From positions 887,481 to 951,480 of the forward strand of contig CM041203.1 of the NCBI GenBank assembly GCA_023078555.1: a stretch of 64,000 nucleotides of DNA. The letters are read 5' to 3'. How positions within the stretch are numbered: position 1 is the first letter of the stretch; every line of letters starts with the position of its first letter. This document shows positions 6,550 to 64,000 of this stretch, piece after piece. Position numbers and translations under genes: made by a program. The notes beneath the pieces were generated by a model that had not been told where the DNA came from, made no database searches, and saw only the letters and a program-made list of their open reading frames with translations. The DNA comes from Ulva prolifera (taxonomy: Eukaryota; Chlorophyta; Ulvophyceae; Ulvales; Ulvaceae).

Positions 6550-8149
6550 ATGGGTGACACCAGCAAAAGCGCCCTGGATGGGCATGCGAGGTATCGCAAA
6601 GTTAAAGATCTGGGCTCTGGTACCTTTGGAAGTGTCGTTCTTTGCGACGATCTCCGCAATCCTCCCAGTCAGGTCGCTGTCAAGCTGATTCCCCGCGGCC
6701 CATCGTCGGTCACTGAATATGTTGTGTCGGAGATCCGTAACTTCCGGTTCGCACCCTTGTCTGGTCATTTTGGGTCCCTCAGACCTGCATGTACTGCGTG
6801 CTGCAATGGAAGTAAGTACGGAAGTGCACGCCGAGCACGGCGATCAAGCTCCATATGTGATCTCACCGTTCTCACAGTGGATGCTGAAATGTTTCATGAT
6901 AGTGGCAATGTGATTGCTGTATGGAGGCGATCACAGCTGTGGAGCTTCGCAGCGGGGTACTTACACGACATCTTTCAATGACGCAGCGGTTGCTGTAGGC
7001 TGTTGTTGCACCCACACATCGTGCAGCTTCAAGAAGTGTTTCTCACAGATCAGTACTTGGGGATCGCCATGGAGTATGCAAATGGCGGTGACACCTTCGA
7101 CTACGTCGTCCAGCAGAAGGGTATTCACGAACCACAGGCTCGCTGGCTTTTCCAACAACTTATAATCGCGATAGACTACTGCCATAGAAAAGGCATTGTC
7201 AATCGTGACTTGAAGTTAGAGAACACCTTGCTGCATTGGCATCCAGGACGCTCTTGGCCCACACTGAAGCTTTGTGACTTTGGGTACTCCAAGAACGAAG
7301 AAACACAGGTCCGTGCTTTGTTCTTTTGCAATGGACTTGTTGCTCAGAATCTAATGCTTTCATGTAGCAGGTGTGCAGTATATGCTGTCATGCAGAGTCT
7401 GGCGAAAAGTCGAGTGGGGACCCCCGGATACATGGCCCCAGAAATTGTTGCAAACAAACCCAAGGAGGGCCAGACTTATGATGGCAAGCCAGCTGACCTC
7501 TGGAGCGCTGGCGTGATCCTCTACGTCATGCTCTGTGCAAGGTTCCCTTTCGAACGCCCTGACGATTCGCAGCTGGCCTACCAAGAAAAGCTGAAGAAAG
7601 TTCTGCAGCGCATCGTGAATGTCCAGTACTCCTTCCCCCGTGGTACGTTTCATTGCCCCGCCGCCACTCCTGCCCCGACTCCCTCAACTCGCGCCAGCAT
7701 CTCCCGCATAGCTTGAGCTTTCAACATGGCGCACCATGCGCAGTGTATCACTGCAGCGTACGGCGGGCTGAGCACCGACACGCCCACTTGTCAGTCATGC
7801 ATGGCAGCCCTGTCTCCATCACCATTGCTACCACAGCCAGCCCCTCGTGCACGAGCAGTAGACTCACATCCATCATACGGCGCCTGCCTCTGCTGCAGCG
7901 TGCAACATCTCGGAGAACTGCCGGGACCTCATCCAGAAGCTCCTCGTCGCTGACCCAGCCCAGCGGCTCACCATCCCAGGCATCTTCCAGCATCCCTGGT
8001 TCCTGCACGACCTGCCGCAGGGCGCCATCACCATGAACGACCGCTTCGTGCAAGCGAAGCCAGTCGGACCAGGCTTCCAGCCGCTCGAGTCCATCGAGCA
8101 GAATCTATCGCAAGCCACCATGGAGGTCTCGGCGGACAGCGGCCACTGA
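6550..8149 (+). CDS. SNRK2: SnRK2-like serine/threonine kinase
   Basis: Exons are 6550-6746, 6999-7308, 7396-7642 and 7899-8149, all in phase, giving 334 residues (SnRK2 proteins are usually 330-360). Order of parts: Gly loop LGSGTFGSV, VAVK lysine, HPHIVQLQEV, MEYANGGDTFDYV, catalytic loop NRDLKLEN, DFGYSK metal-binding loop, VGTPGYMAPEI, then YDGKPADLWSAGV and HPWFL at the end of the kinase domain. GYSK after DF and the HPWFL/DLP ending are typical of SnRK2, the plant kinases of osmotic and abscisic-acid signalling. The tail after the kinase domain is about 40 residues and moderately acidic. Two points are odd. The catalytic HRD reads NRD, and the first donor (GTTCGC) is weak. The kinase fold is certain; the SnRK2 subclass is likely. 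Confidence 0.85.
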
Positions 8150-8525
8150 TGCTCACGCTCCATCTGTGATGTCAGTGCTCCACGCAGGCGCCTCTGTCGC
8201 CACGCTGCCACCGCGCTGCATGCAGCCGGCGCCGTCAGGCGATGCCGTCCAGCACACCGCGTTCTGGCCGATTTGCGGTAGGGCCCATGATGTAGGATTG
8301 GATTGAGGCAGGCGAGCGCTCCATCGCGCCGCCGGTGTATTTCCAGCGTGTGGCGCCCGGCCAGGACGTGTGGCGGCTGGCCGTGGCGGAACACATACAC
8401 CGCCCCACACACAGCAGGGGCACCTGGTTACAGTTCCTATCGGCTTGACAACATCCACGGGTGTATGCACTCGCGGCGCAGCAGACAACAGCAACGCTCT
8501 GATGTTGCCCGTGCAACAGGGCAAG
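8150..8525. other. intergenic between converging genes
   Basis: This lies between the stop of the SnRK2-like gene and the stop of the minus-strand TFIIS-domain gene. No convincing frame or RNA was seen. Confidence 0.4.
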
Positions 8526-10773
8526 CTACTGCCGATGTGGAAGCAGGTGGGCTAGTGCCTCCTGCACCAGAGTCTCTGTCCTGAGAGCCTGTTCCCGCCA
8601 CCTCGCGATCAGCTCGGACGCCCTCTGCGAAATGTCCCGGCGTGGATGGCTCATGTAAGGTAGCACACTGAACACCACTCGGCTCATGTCCAGCGCCTGC
8701 ATCCCCACCTGCATAGCAACAGGCTTCCTCTGACGATGCAGTACAGCCATCTGTGTGTGTCTGGCCGCGCTGGCGCACCACGCGAGTACTGTCAGGGGCC
8801 AAACATTCATCCGTTCTGGTGCGTGTCGTCAGTGCACTGGGCAAAACGGCACCCGTAGCCCCACACCGAGTGAGTCCCGTTGACTTGGACTGGCAACTCC
8901 CCCCGGGCCGCGACGGTTGCAAGTCACAGTACCCATGCAGATGACTGGGACCACATCCCCCCAGTCTATCCACCCGGTAATCCCTGAGCTATGCACGCCC
9001 GATCCCCAGCGCCTCATCTTCTTCTGAACAAAGTGGTCACGCGCGATTGTGTGCGTTCCATGACAGGGCACGCAGCGTGAAACATAGGATCTGCTGCACC
9101 AGGGATCACCTCCTGCCCAACGGAAAAATGCGAAAGTATCTACTGTCTGATCGACCGAAGAAAACACCAAGTCCACTGGCGGGGTGGCCAGGAGACCTGA
9201 CAGGGCAGCCGCAACACACCCGGGGAGCAGAGAGGTCATCCAGGATGTGCAGCACGTGTGCGGCGGCGGCCCCGCCTCCGCTCGGCCCTGCAGCACCCGC
9301 CGCACACACGCTCCCACCCCGCAGCTCGTCGAGCTGCGATGCGGACCGGGACAGCTCCTTCAGCAGGCTGCCGTCGGGGTCGGACAGCGCCCACTGCGCG
9401 AGGCCTCCATCCCGGAAGACTCTCGATACCTCAACCGCGGCGCCTGGCGGCGCACCAGCGCCGTGCGGGGGCGCCTCCGCAGGGGCGCGGACAAAGCGGA
9501 AGCGGGAGTGGATCCAGTCCAGGGCCTGCTGTCTGCTATGCAGGACCGCGCCCCCGAGCTCCGGCACGATTCGGTACGTGTACCGCCTACACACGCGTGC
9601 ATGTGTGGACAGCACAGCTGCCGGCGACATGCATGTGCCATGCTCGCCGCCGCCTGCATCGGGGCAAGCGTGCCACAAGAGTGCTTGCCGTGACTGTGCG
9701 CGTGCTCGGCGCCGAGGAGTTGCGCTTGGCGAGTTGCGCTCTTGGTTCCGTGCACTGGCTGCTCGCTTCCCGCCTTAACAGTCGTGTAACGGCGTATCTA
9801 AGCTGCGCAGTCACAAAGCAGTGGTAGAGCAGGGGCAAGCGCGTGTGGGCGGACCTGCTGTTGGCCCGCCTCTCGCAGCCGTGCACCACTGCCGCCTCGC
9901 GGCCCCCGATGCTGTCCCGCAGCACCAACTTGATGACTTTCCTGCCGGCGCTGTCCTTGCAGCAGCACTCAAACAGCCCTGTCCAGCCGTCATGGCGCAC
10001 CGCCTGCGCTCCCGGCTCGCCGTCCACAGGCGCCGCAGCAGCTGTTTCCGCAACTGCATGCATACGTTGTGACCTCTGGAGAGACCGCTCTTCGGGCCGA
10101 ACAATGCCTGCGCTGCCAGAACTGCTTGTGAGCTGCATGCTGTGAGCTGCATGCTGTGAGCTGCATGCTGTGGTGCGCTGCGCACAGTTGTGGCGGCGAT
10201 TGCTGTTGCGCACAAGCAGGGCTGAATCGATCGCTGCGCTGTCTGCGGTCAGCGGCGTGGTGTGGCCGCCACTGCCGCAGCTGCCAGCAGCGGGGCAGGG
10301 ACGGAAGCAAGCACCGGGGCGAAATGGTCCCGGCTCGGATGCACCAACACGCCTGCGAGAACTACTTCAGGCACAGCCGCATCCAGGCGGAGTAATTTTG
10401 CACAGCTAGGCAGCCCATGCGCCGCCGAGGCGCCGCCGCCGGCACGGCCGTGTGCGTGTGTGGCGTGCTGTGAAACAAGCGGAGGGGGATGCAGGGGCGC
10501 ACCAGGCTGCTCAAGGCCGTGGTGCAGCTTCTGCGCGAGCGCCGCAGGCAGCTTGCCGTGGGCGTGCTTGAGCAGCAGGGCGCACACCTGCGCCTCCCCG
10601 GGCTCGGCGATGCGGGCAATCACTCCGCGGTCCGCCTCCGCAGCGGCGCCCTTCCGCTGCTGCAGCCACCGCCGCACGGCGGTCTTGTTCTTGACGTGCA
10701 GCTGCGCCTCCGCGGCCGCGGAGGGGTCGACGGAGAAGTATTCGTAGTGGCCACTCCTCCTCATGTCGACGCC
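8526..10773 (-). CDS. nuclear protein with C-terminal TFIIS N-domain
   Basis: The best-supported part is the last exon, 8708-8526, entered by TATGCAG and ending in TAG. It reads GMQALDMSRVVFSVLPYMSH, then DISQRASELIARWRE. This is the LW/TFIIS N-terminal fold (a four-helix bundle in TFIIS, MED26, IWS1 and elongins) ending in the conserved A-xx-L-xx-R/KW. A second clear exon is 10773-10503 (HYEYFSVDP, VKNKTAVRRWLQQRKG). Other coding-like pieces lie between: about 10075-9855 (DGWTGLFECCCKDSAGRKVI) and about 9585-9260 (YTYRIVPELGGAVLHSRQQA, then LAQWALSDPDGSLLKEL). DGW ... YRIVP ... LHSRQQAL is loosely like a split methyl-CpG-binding domain, but I would not insist. Internal junctions are not resolved. 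It is probably a transcription-elongation or chromatin factor. More 5' exons are likely upstream. Confidence 0.5.
10127..10168. repeat. 14-bp tandem repeat, three copies
   Basis: TGTGAGCTGCATGC is repeated three times head to tail without a mismatch. On the minus strand each unit reads GCATGCAG followed by CTCACA, so each unit carries a possible 3' splice site for the TFIIS-domain gene. Confidence 0.8.
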
Positions 10774-13562: not shown

Positions 13563-15588
13563 ATGTCGACTGAGCAGCGCCCAGACTTTCCAAATGTATC
13601 GAATTTTTGCAAGGAGTTTGTGAACGGTGGGACATGCCCCCGCGGGCAAGAATGCAAGTACGCCCGTAATTTCACCTTCTGTGTATTGGAATCGAGCTTT
13701 TGCTTGCTTGCTGGGGATGGAGCCAAGTCATAGGCATTGTTGGGCACTGTCTGGCACCGTCCCTGCACACCATTGTTATTCTCTTTGACACATGCACGTG
13801 CATTTTCGCTCCTCCTTCACAAACAATACTACCCCTTACAGATTTATGCATCCTGCTCCAGCGGATCTTCCATCTGCAAGGGCACACTGGCTAGCCACCC
13901 GAAAGCAGACCAAGCAGATGGCAAGACATGAGCTGGGAGATCCACACGCGTTTGATGCCTACAAGAAATCAGACCGCGCTGTGATTCTGGCCAAATGGCT
14001 GGTCCAGACGTATGGCCATCAGCAACTGAACAGTGGGTCAGGTGTGAGCGCGGAACCTCACTGTACAAGGTATTTTGTCCAGGCAGGCATACGGCGCCAA
14101 GTAGCATTGACCAGATGGCTGTCTATATATGGAAGTCTGTCGCTGCTGCTATTCAAAGCTGGTGGCTGTGAGACAGCGCTGGTCTGGGGTGGACGGCAGC
14201 AGGCAAGGATAGCAAACACACCCCCCATGTACCGCCACATACAGGCTGGCAACTCTACAATTCAACCACGTGACTGTGAAAGTCCCTGTGAGGGAGCCGG
14301 CATAATAACATCATCGTTGCATTGTTGTAAATCATTACGAATGAGAGCGCCACTTCTCCACTGAGTTGTATCAGGCCTTACTTCCTAACGCAGCCAGCAT
14401 ACGCATAAGCTTGAGAAGTATGCACGAGATTGCGCAGATGCGCTTGGGGAAAGCGACAGTGGTGACCCCCAATGCTGAAGTCATCCATGGGCAAAAGCAT
14501 GGCACCACAGTCCGTTAGATCAGGCGGTCGCGTCAATATTACAGTTGATGATATCAACACCGCATTGCAAGGCACTCCACTCACATGTACATGTGAGTGG
14601 AGTGCACACACATGTGCATGCGCTGCCTGATCCCCGCTGCGAGCTGCCCCGGAACAGCCAGTATAGCACCCTGGCCCCAGCATGTCTTCCTACAGAATCC
14701 CAGTCCTAGGGTCCAGATTCACCAGTGCCTCAGTCGGTCCACATGGCTGCATGATCATGCATATATGCACACAGATGTTGGGCCGCTGGTGCAGGTGTCC
14801 TAGATGTTGCAGGGGGCCGAGGCGAGCTGTCGTTTGAGCTGCACCATGTGCACAAGGTCCGCGTCACTCTGGTGGAGCCCCGACCGTGGGCACCGTGGAA
14901 ACTGAGTAAGCGGCAGCGTGGGATTCTCAAAGCCTCAGGCTTCCCCTGGAAGGCATTCTCTATCACACAGCTGCAGTCGCACTTCACAGATGAGCTGTCT
15001 CCCAGCCTGGCACAGGTGTGCTCTCCATGCAGCAAGCGTACGCTGTAGAGCTGCTGCACACATACACAAAAGGAACCACCGAGTACTCAGCATGCATGGC
15101 GCGTGAAGCCTCCGCTAACTGCGTGGCTGATCAGAGCTGTCATTGCCGCATGCACACGGGCCGTGGCCATCCTGGCAAATACTCTCCTCGTACCACGCCA
15201 GCAATTGTGACGCCGAAAGCAAGCCGATGTGAAGGATCCAGATGTGCAGGTTGTCCAGGACTGCTCGATGCTGGTGGGGCTGCACCCAGACCAAGCAACC
15301 GAACCCATTCTTCGGCATGCAAACAGCATGGGCAAGCCATTCTGCATACTGCCATGCTGTGTCTTCCCGCTGCACCATCCTGATCGGAGGATCATCCGAG
15401 CAGACGGGTCAGACGCTCCAGTGTTGAGCCACTCTGACCTGGTGCAGTACCTGGTACAGGCGGGGCAGGCAAGAACAGCAGCCCTGCCCTTCGCTGGGAG
15501 GAACGTCGCAGTGTACCGCACTGCGGCCCGTGCATCAGGTCGCTTGTCGATGCTGCCCACCAACGATGACACACCGGGCACTGCATGA
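13563..15588 (+). CDS. CCCH zinc finger plus SAM methyltransferase
   Basis: Exons are 13563-13657, 13842-14041, 14795-15015 and 15220-15588, all in phase, giving 294 residues. The first intron splits the finger exactly. After joining, it reads CKEFVNGGTC and PRGQECKFMH, a perfect C-x8-C-x5-C-x3-H. A linker (RAVILAKWLVQTYG) leads to the SAM-binding motif I, VLDVAGGRGELSFEL, then VRVTLVEPRP (motif II) and SMLVGLHPDQATEPIL. The C-terminal strands LPCCVFPLHH and LPFAGRNVAVY complete the Rossmann methyltransferase fold. CCCH fingers bind RNA, so an RNA substrate is the natural inference; no substrate is known to me. Intron 2 is long (753 bp) and holds a 34-bp palindrome. Confidence 0.8.
14572..14605. 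repeat. 34-bp perfect palindrome
   Basis: GCACTCCACTCACATGT is followed directly by its exact reverse complement, so the arms are 17 bp with no spacer. It lies in intron 2 of the CCCH-methyltransferase gene. Confidence 0.85.
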
Positions 15589-17039: not shown

Positions 17040-17133
17040 TGCTAGTTACAGGGTTCGAACCTGTGCGGCCGAAGCCACAGCAATGCACAAGATGTCTTGA
17101 GTGCTGCCCCTTAGACCACTCGGGCAAACTAGC
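17040..17133 (-). tRNA. trnL-CAA: tRNA-Leu(CAA) with a short intron
   Basis: The minus strand folds as a tRNA. The acceptor stem is GCTAGTT/AACTAGC, and the D arm contains GAGTGGTCTAAGG. The anticodon loop has CAA at 17099-17097. The long variable arm (GGC TTCG GCC) is typical of Leu, and the T arm is ACAGG TTCGAAC CCTGT. The anticodon stem closes (CAGCA/TGCTG) only if about 12 nt after the base 3' of the anticodon are removed, the standard intron position. Mature length is then about 82 nt. A-box and B-box promoters are internal. Upstream of its 5' end, about 70 bp away, begins a large inverted repeat. Confidence 0.93.
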
Positions 17134-17202
17134 TATCCGATGAATCAACGGAAGACATGCTATGAACACTTGGCGACAAACGTTGAGTATATTTTTATTT
17201 AT

Positions 17203-17615
17203 TGGCATTTTCTAACTAGTACAATTTGTATCTGTCTTGCGTAATGGGTGGTCTGCTTCTTCCTGTGCCTCGTGCAGTCAGCTGTTGCAAGCCATACATG
17301 CAGATGGGGTAGCTAGCGGAGTAAGCAGGGTGGGGCCCACTACAATTTTATCTGAGTGGCACTGTCCTAAAGGCTCATGGGTTTGCCCCAACTCGTCAAG
17401 CCAATAATCCACAAGCTGTAATTGTATCGGGGCAAACCCATGAGCCTTTAGGACAGTGCCACTCAGATAAAATTGTAGTGGGCCCCACCCTGCTTACTCC
17501 GCTAGCTACCCCATCTGCATGCATGGCTTGCAACAGCTGATTGCACGAGGCACAGGAAGAAGCAGACCACCCATTACGCAAGACAGATACAAATTGCACT
17601 AGTTAGAAAATGCCA
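17203..17615. repeat. 187-bp near-perfect inverted repeat
   Basis: The left arm is 17203-17389, the loop 17390-17428 (39 bp) and the right arm 17429-17615. I aligned the arms by eye along their whole length. They differ at only three places (left positions 17221, 17277 and 17296), all A/G transitions, so identity is about 98%. The outer ends are TGGCATTTTCTAAC and its complement. No convincing target-site duplication flanks it, and no frame inside looks coding. A transcript through it would form a hairpin of about 187 base pairs. It could be a long-hairpin small-RNA (miRNA-like) locus, a foldback or MITE-type DNA element, or a recent inverted duplication. Confidence 0.95.
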
Positions 17616-17904
17616 TACATGTACACAAGCACATTAGGCAATGGTGCTTGTCAATTGGCTGGGAGGCTTGTGCACAGGGGGTCAGGAGCCGCATGCCACC
17701 GTGTGCATATGACGGCAGGACACGCTATAACATTGTTAACAAAGAGAAAGTGCATCGCCCATTTCACTGGTGAGTTCGCAGGACAACTGGATGGAACACG
17801 CGTATGGGGTATCATGCCTGATTGCGTTCAGCCGAATTAGAAGCGGCCTGTTTGCATTCGAATGAGCTGTTCTTTTTCAATCTTCCTCATTGCGGCAGCA
17901 CGTA

Positions 17905-18656
17905 TCATCTGTCATGCTGAAGGATGTTTAAAAAGGTGCTCTCATCTAGCAATATACCAAATGGTTTCCCATGACAAGCAGTCAAGGTGACCGGCTCCGT
18001 TGCGACATCACCTGACATGTCCATGTACATGGGAAGGGTGTTGACAGCGGTGTCCGTTGATATGCAGTTGTATGGAGGCGGCGCTGACGACCATTGCAGC
18101 TGCACTTCGCCACCCTCTTGGATTTTCTTGACCATGTGCGAGCGATCAGACGCAAAGTGGCTGAGGAACGATCCGGCCTCCACGCATCTCCATCTGCGTC
18201 TCAGTCTCTCTATTTGACAAGCTTCAGATTGTGGCAGCAGAGCCTGTTCAATCCAGAGACCAACAGGGCATGGGAACGGCAGTGAGGAGTCTAGATCGAA
18301 GATAACTGCTCCTCCCATCGGGCTGAGGCCAACAGCAAGAACATGGTAATCCCAGATCACAGGGCCATTGGATCGTGCGTTGCACCAGATAGGTACCTGA
18401 AGGCGTGCAGTGGTTACAAGCGTGTCAAAATATGGTAGCAAAGCTCGGCAGGAAAAATACGGGAGCGTGCGCACCGTCCGGTTGACGTTTGACATGAACA
18501 CAGCATACAGATCACCTTCCCAGGATTCGCACAGCCGTCCAAGCATCCAGTAAACCTGCAGCCACGATCTGCAGGATTGTGCGCCACCGAGTGATAGCAT
18601 GTGGGCACGTACGGTGTCAGTAGCTCAGAACTCCTGTTCACGCGCGATTCGAGCAT
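17905..18656 (-). CDS. NTAQ1: protein N-terminal glutamine amidohydrolase
   Basis: Exons are 18656-18588, 18555-18475 and 18396-17905, phase 0 throughout, giving 213 residues (the family is about 205-210). NTAQ1 converts N-terminal Gln of proteins to Glu, the first step of the Gln/N-degron pathway. Landmarks are YAVFMSNVN, VPIWCNARS, GPVIWDYHV (catalytic His), AVIFDLDSSLPFPC (catalytic Asp), FLSHFASDRSHM and PPPYNC. The catalytic Cys should be the one in YVPTCYHS near residue 20. In relatives this is CYCEEN followed by an aromatic residue. Here the joined sequence reads CYHS then VYWML, so the Glu pair is missing. The donor of exon 1 decides this. The gene is otherwise clear. Confidence 0.88.

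Positions 18657-32586: not shown

Positions 32587-32702
<116 letters not shown>

Positions 32703-63668: not shown

Positions 63669-64000
<332 letters not shown>

Follow-up and report, generated by a model that had tools for sequence, protein, structure and literature searches.

A near-perfect hairpin of 413 nt lies between a tRNA gene and a protein-coding gene in a 64-kb stretch (64,000 nucleotides) of the Ulva prolifera genome, hereafter called the window. This raises the question of whether the hairpin is a source of small RNAs, a mobile element or an inverted duplication that does nothing. The reading that we favor, at a probability of roughly 40%, is that a long inverted repeat, present as a single copy, sits in or behind the 3' UTR of the neighboring NTAQ1 gene, where it would be transcribed and cut by Dicer into small RNAs, lowering NTAQ1 mRNA in cis. 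Hairpins in such positions are described from Chlamydomonas, where many miRNA hairpins sit in introns and UTRs, where 8 of 13 mRNAs with a UTR miRNA are reported to go up in dcl3 mutants, and where direct cutting by DCL3 has been put forward by the authors as possible for at least 43 mRNAs (PMC4817775).

The hairpin is near perfect and looks single copy

Inverted-repeat detection resolved the hairpin (17203-17615) into a left arm of 187 nt (17203-17389, plus strand), a loop of 39 nt (17390-17428, without strand) and a right arm (17429-17615, minus strand) whose reverse complement agrees with the left arm at 184 of the 187 positions. The three mismatches (at 17221, 17277 and 17296) are all A/G, which corresponds to a divergence of 1.6% between the arms. 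Arm coordinates, match count, loop length and the type of the three differences reproduce exactly what a first-pass annotation of this DNA had reported. The element thus bounded has terminal inverted repeats, and the predicted RNA fold of 17190-17630 has an energy of -389.6 kcal/mol, whereas shuffled sequences average -131.1 (z -46) and 0 of 100 are equally stable. The hairpin is real, far beyond chance, and its fold energy is that of a stable long hairpin of the kind found in Chlamydomonas-type UTR loci. No open frame runs through it in any frame, which agrees with the earlier statement that nothing inside is coding; a coding origin of the arms was rejected on this ground.

Copies were sought in the whole genome (88.9 Mb, 44 contigs) by a DNA search that passes over very common words and whose copy counts are lower bounds. 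One arm used as the query matched the two hairpin arms only, and the left arm plus loop, with E up to 10, again matched the hairpin only. Six patterns of 22-24 nt, which together span 142 of the 187 arm positions, were also run genome-wide with up to three mismatches: five matched nowhere but the hairpin, the remaining one matched the hairpin and one further place, on contig C6, and the backward controls of all six gave 0 matches. At the sensitivity of these searches, the hairpin looks single copy. An exact 24-nt pattern from the hairpin had 0 matches in viral_contigs.

Long inverted repeats also appear to be scarce around it. The window holds 44 further inverted pairs with arms at most 3 kb apart, and all 24 of those listed are 25-nt CA/TG simple-sequence pairs. 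Eighteen 10-kb stretches of the same genome, 180 kb in all, were scanned as well, of which 13 were spaced on a coarse grid, 3 surrounded the Argonaute and RNase III loci described below and 2 adjoined the window. The scan required an exact seed of 12 nt, 85% identity and no more than 3 kb between the arms, passed over low-complexity seeds and found no other inverted pair of at least 35 nt; one of these stretches (L017) contains three pairs of 30-34 nt. Two long TG arrays lie elsewhere in the window (32590-32699 and 63672-63999), the second of which continues past the window's end into L029.

Neighboring genes and a possible host transcript

To the right of the hairpin, the C-terminal frame of an NTAQ1-type protein (N-terminal glutamine amidase) occupies 17905-18624 on the minus strand (PF09764, 116.2 bits, cut-off 27). 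NTAQ1 acts in the N-degron pathway. Its TGA stop codon (17905-17907) is 289 nt upstream of the hairpin on the same strand, and we propose from this placement that the hairpin is part of the NTAQ1 3' UTR or follows it immediately. Reading along the minus strand from the stop codon to the hairpin's far end, there is no TGTAA or AATAAA before two overlapping AATAAA words (17194-17203), which start at 17203, the outermost base of the hairpin, and at 17199, and which may serve as a poly(A) signal. Neither word is enriched in 244 kb of sequence, where TGTAA occurs 279 times (266 expected) and the rare AATAAA 29 times on both strands (34 expected). Downstream of an Argonaute gene, the first 1,200 nt after the stop codon contain one TGTAA, at 295 nt, and no AATAAA.

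To the left, a tRNA gene with a long variable arm and a 12-nt intron occupies 17040-17133 on the minus strand (Rfam RF00005, 45.4 bits). ARAGORN returned nothing for this region in default mode and Val(cac) with a 12-nt intron when introns were allowed; contrary to that call, we read the gene from its letters as a tRNA-Leu(CAA), which bears out the minus-strand tRNA-Leu that the first-pass annotation had placed beside the hairpin. That annotation had also suggested that read-through from the tRNA could transcribe the hairpin, a suggestion that fails: tRNA transcription runs leftward, away from the hairpin, and therefore its read-through cannot yield hairpin RNA. NTAQ1 appears to be the better host transcript. 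The spacing of just 69 bp would also suit a tRNA-linked element, with the hairpin acting as an insulator or being co-transcribed with the tRNA by Pol III, but the direction of the tRNA and the internal Pol III promoters that tRNA genes carry make this very improbable. Farther left, none of six open frames between 13.8 and 16.9 kb (four plus, two minus) has a Pfam match. By eye, the plus-strand open frames at 14755-15588 resemble a methyltransferase-like gene that ends near 15588, likewise with no Pfam match.

Silencing genes and the small-RNA reading

A genome profile search, and a search of the frames, gave Piwi domain matches above the cut-off at two loci, on C6 and C3, and the C6 Argonaute locus additionally matches ArgoL2. 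The genome thus has, at two loci, the Argonaute gene that a Chlamydomonas-type UTR hairpin would need. Another region of C6 (C6:1668000-1677999) contains two matches to the RNase III domain, which lie on one strand some 3.5 kb from each other and score 48.4 bits and 25 bits; the second is below the cut-off of 27, and the genome-wide RNase III search reports only the first. Two such matches point to a probable Dicer-like gene. Because Argonaute and probable Dicer-like loci are present and a same-strand NTAQ1 stop codon lies within 289 nt, the small-RNA reading gains necessary conditions.

Under this reading, Pol II would read from NTAQ1 across 17615-17203 and terminate close to the far-end AATAAA words. 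The 187-bp double-stranded stem would then be cut by a Dicer-like enzyme, so that both arms would yield small RNAs of 20-22 nt and NTAQ1 mRNA would fall in cis. We infer here the Dicer identity of the RNase III locus, the transcription and cutting of the hairpin and whatever effect these would have on NTAQ1 or a target in trans. We counted in favor of this model the 187-bp near-perfect stem (z -46), the same-strand stop codon, AATAAA at the far end only, the two Piwi loci, the RNase III locus and the standing of the hairpin as the sole inverted repeat of at least 35 nt when set against the 180 kb sampled. Counted against it were the lack of enrichment of TGTAA and AATAAA in 244 kb and the strand of the best candidate-target pairing (below), which needs a plus-strand transcript and not the NTAQ1 strand.

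The hairpin does not belong to a known miRNA family of Rfam: in a regional scan the best match was MIR5387 at 43 bits (gathering score 69), no family reached its threshold, and family membership was rejected. The regional scan was taken as the test because a scan of the whole window with fast filters returned nothing and missed even the tRNA. In plants, MIRNA criteria call for a foldback precursor of about 300 nt or less and for one precisely cut miRNA/miRNA* duplex; at 413 nt this foldback is longer than that limit. In Chlamydomonas, many of the condition-prevalent miRNAs are described as seemingly derived from hairpins that are rather long and cut without precision (PMC5511227). The anatomy of the hairpin fits a Chlamydomonas-type hairpin locus; a small-RNA role is possible, and more plausible with NTAQ1 as the host.

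A candidate target beside an Argonaute gene

Comparison of the hairpin with the sampled loci gave one notable match, a 24-nt stretch on C6 (G000 C6, L025:7616-7639; C6:7877617-7877640) that is identical at 23 of 24 positions to the right arm (17529-17552, plus strand). It is the same stretch that the sixth pattern had matched on C6, shifted by two bases in the alignment, and that pattern found genome-wide only the hairpin and this place. The stretch follows the Argonaute stop codon at a distance of 1.7 kb and lies within an open frame; the frames at L025:7559-8155, 8077-8442 and 9234-9701 have no Pfam match. A right-arm small RNA from a plus-strand transcript is predicted to pair with it over 24 of 24 nt, with one G-U, while a small RNA from the NTAQ1 strand would have one mismatch more. 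Target sites of Chlamydomonas miRNAs are reported to lie primarily in coding sequence (PMC6668577).

Two controls bear on this match. In the first, windows of 187 nt were compared with 192 kb, and 5 of 342 scored as high as the candidate match; one of the five was the right-arm window itself and four were simple repeats (three TG arrays and one C run). In the second, 38 of 949 windows matched as well in another sampled locus, and 7 of these 38 matches were at most 30 nt long. Because the Argonaute locus had been sampled for another reason, the match is a post-hoc candidate, which we treat as a lead and not as a finding. That the hairpin gives rise to a small RNA, starting with 5'-U in the register proposed, which pairs over 24 nt (one G-U) with a coding exon of the gene directly downstream of the Argonaute gene, making the NTAQ1 3'-UTR hairpin the source of a lineage-specific silencing circuit, is a highly improbable extension of the favored reading.

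Mobile element or inert duplication

MITEs and foldback DNA elements have the same inverted-repeat anatomy, and the hairpin could be the last copy left of a foldback or MITE-like DNA transposon that inserted upstream of the tRNA gene in an AT-rich target. Its compact size, the AT-rich left flank beside the tRNA gene and the TA at both borders, matching one base out of register, are in keeping with such an origin. Such elements would be expected in multiple dispersed copies with target-site duplications. Here one copy was found, the only other match genome-wide being the 24-nt stretch on C6, and a comparison of the two borders, at offsets of up to 5 bases from either one, turned up no direct repeat above 2 bp, in line with the first-pass annotation, which had seen no clear duplication. 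The 22-nt end of the hairpin, with up to three mismatches, occurs at the hairpin alone. Its 14-nt end, with up to one mismatch, occurs at 13 places (6 for the backward control), of which 2 are the hairpin; we inspected six of the other 11, 3 of which sit in one unrelated repeat, and found no inverted repeat of at least 25 nt in the 2-kb stretches around any of the six. A DNA search with the tRNA and its 5' flank found no second copy that would reveal an empty site. The transposon origin is therefore unlikely. Because the hairpin looks single copy at the sensitivity of these searches and no target-site duplication above 2 bp was found, no MITE family is supported, and membership in one was rejected on these two grounds; the MITE alternative raised by the first-pass annotation does not survive the copy-number test that it had itself proposed, since neither the one-arm DNA search nor the patterns found a dispersed family.

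The main rival of the NTAQ1 small-RNA reading is an inverted duplication without function, in which a template switch during replication or repair produced a reversed second copy of a unique 187-bp stretch and left a palindrome that has no role. Single-copy arms (by the DNA searches and five of the six patterns), a target-site duplication that was not found, arms that differ at just 3 of 187 positions and the absence of an open frame are all as this explanation would have them. Long near-perfect hairpins look rare, with 0 others in 180 kb, which weighs against this rival, though rarity suits either reading; junction microhomology, too, was not seen by eye. We regard an inert duplication as quite possible, if still somewhat doubtful, and place it close to the NTAQ1 small-RNA reading; it accounts equally well for the single copy and the missing target duplication.

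Relation to known hairpin loci

The UTR and intron hairpins cut by DCL3 in Chlamydomonas reinhardtii (PMC4817775) share with this locus a stable hairpin just behind a coding frame, in a genome that has Argonaute genes and probable Dicer-like ones; the U. prolifera hairpin differs in being one 187-bp near-perfect duplex. Chlamydomonas miRNAs are reported not to be conserved (PMC5511227). If functional, the hairpin is a further example of this known type. Young MIRNA and hpRNA loci of plants arise by inverted duplication, and they resemble the hairpin in their near-identical arms and single copy; the difference is that DNA searches found no parent gene fragment here, the sole other match being 24 nt long.

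If transcribed and diced, the hairpin would be a clean single-locus case of an N-degron gene, NTAQ1, that bears its own Dicer substrate, and it would let the idea that hairpins in a 3' UTR destabilize their host mRNA be tested beyond Chlamydomonas. If not, it would be a unique long palindrome, its arms 1.6% diverged, that survives in a genome of the green lineage.

Two further observations concern other sequences. Three of the 2-kb stretches inspected for the 14-nt end (L032, L033 and L034, on G000 C2, C3 and C6) hold three copies of one repeat that contains the 14-mer TGGCATTTTCTAGC; the copies are 98-99% alike across 0.6-2 kb, and this dispersed repeat is young. A kinase encoded in the window points to the green lineage, its top-scoring solved relatives being SnRK2 proteins of plants (1e-45, compared with 6e-32 for SNF1/AMPK).
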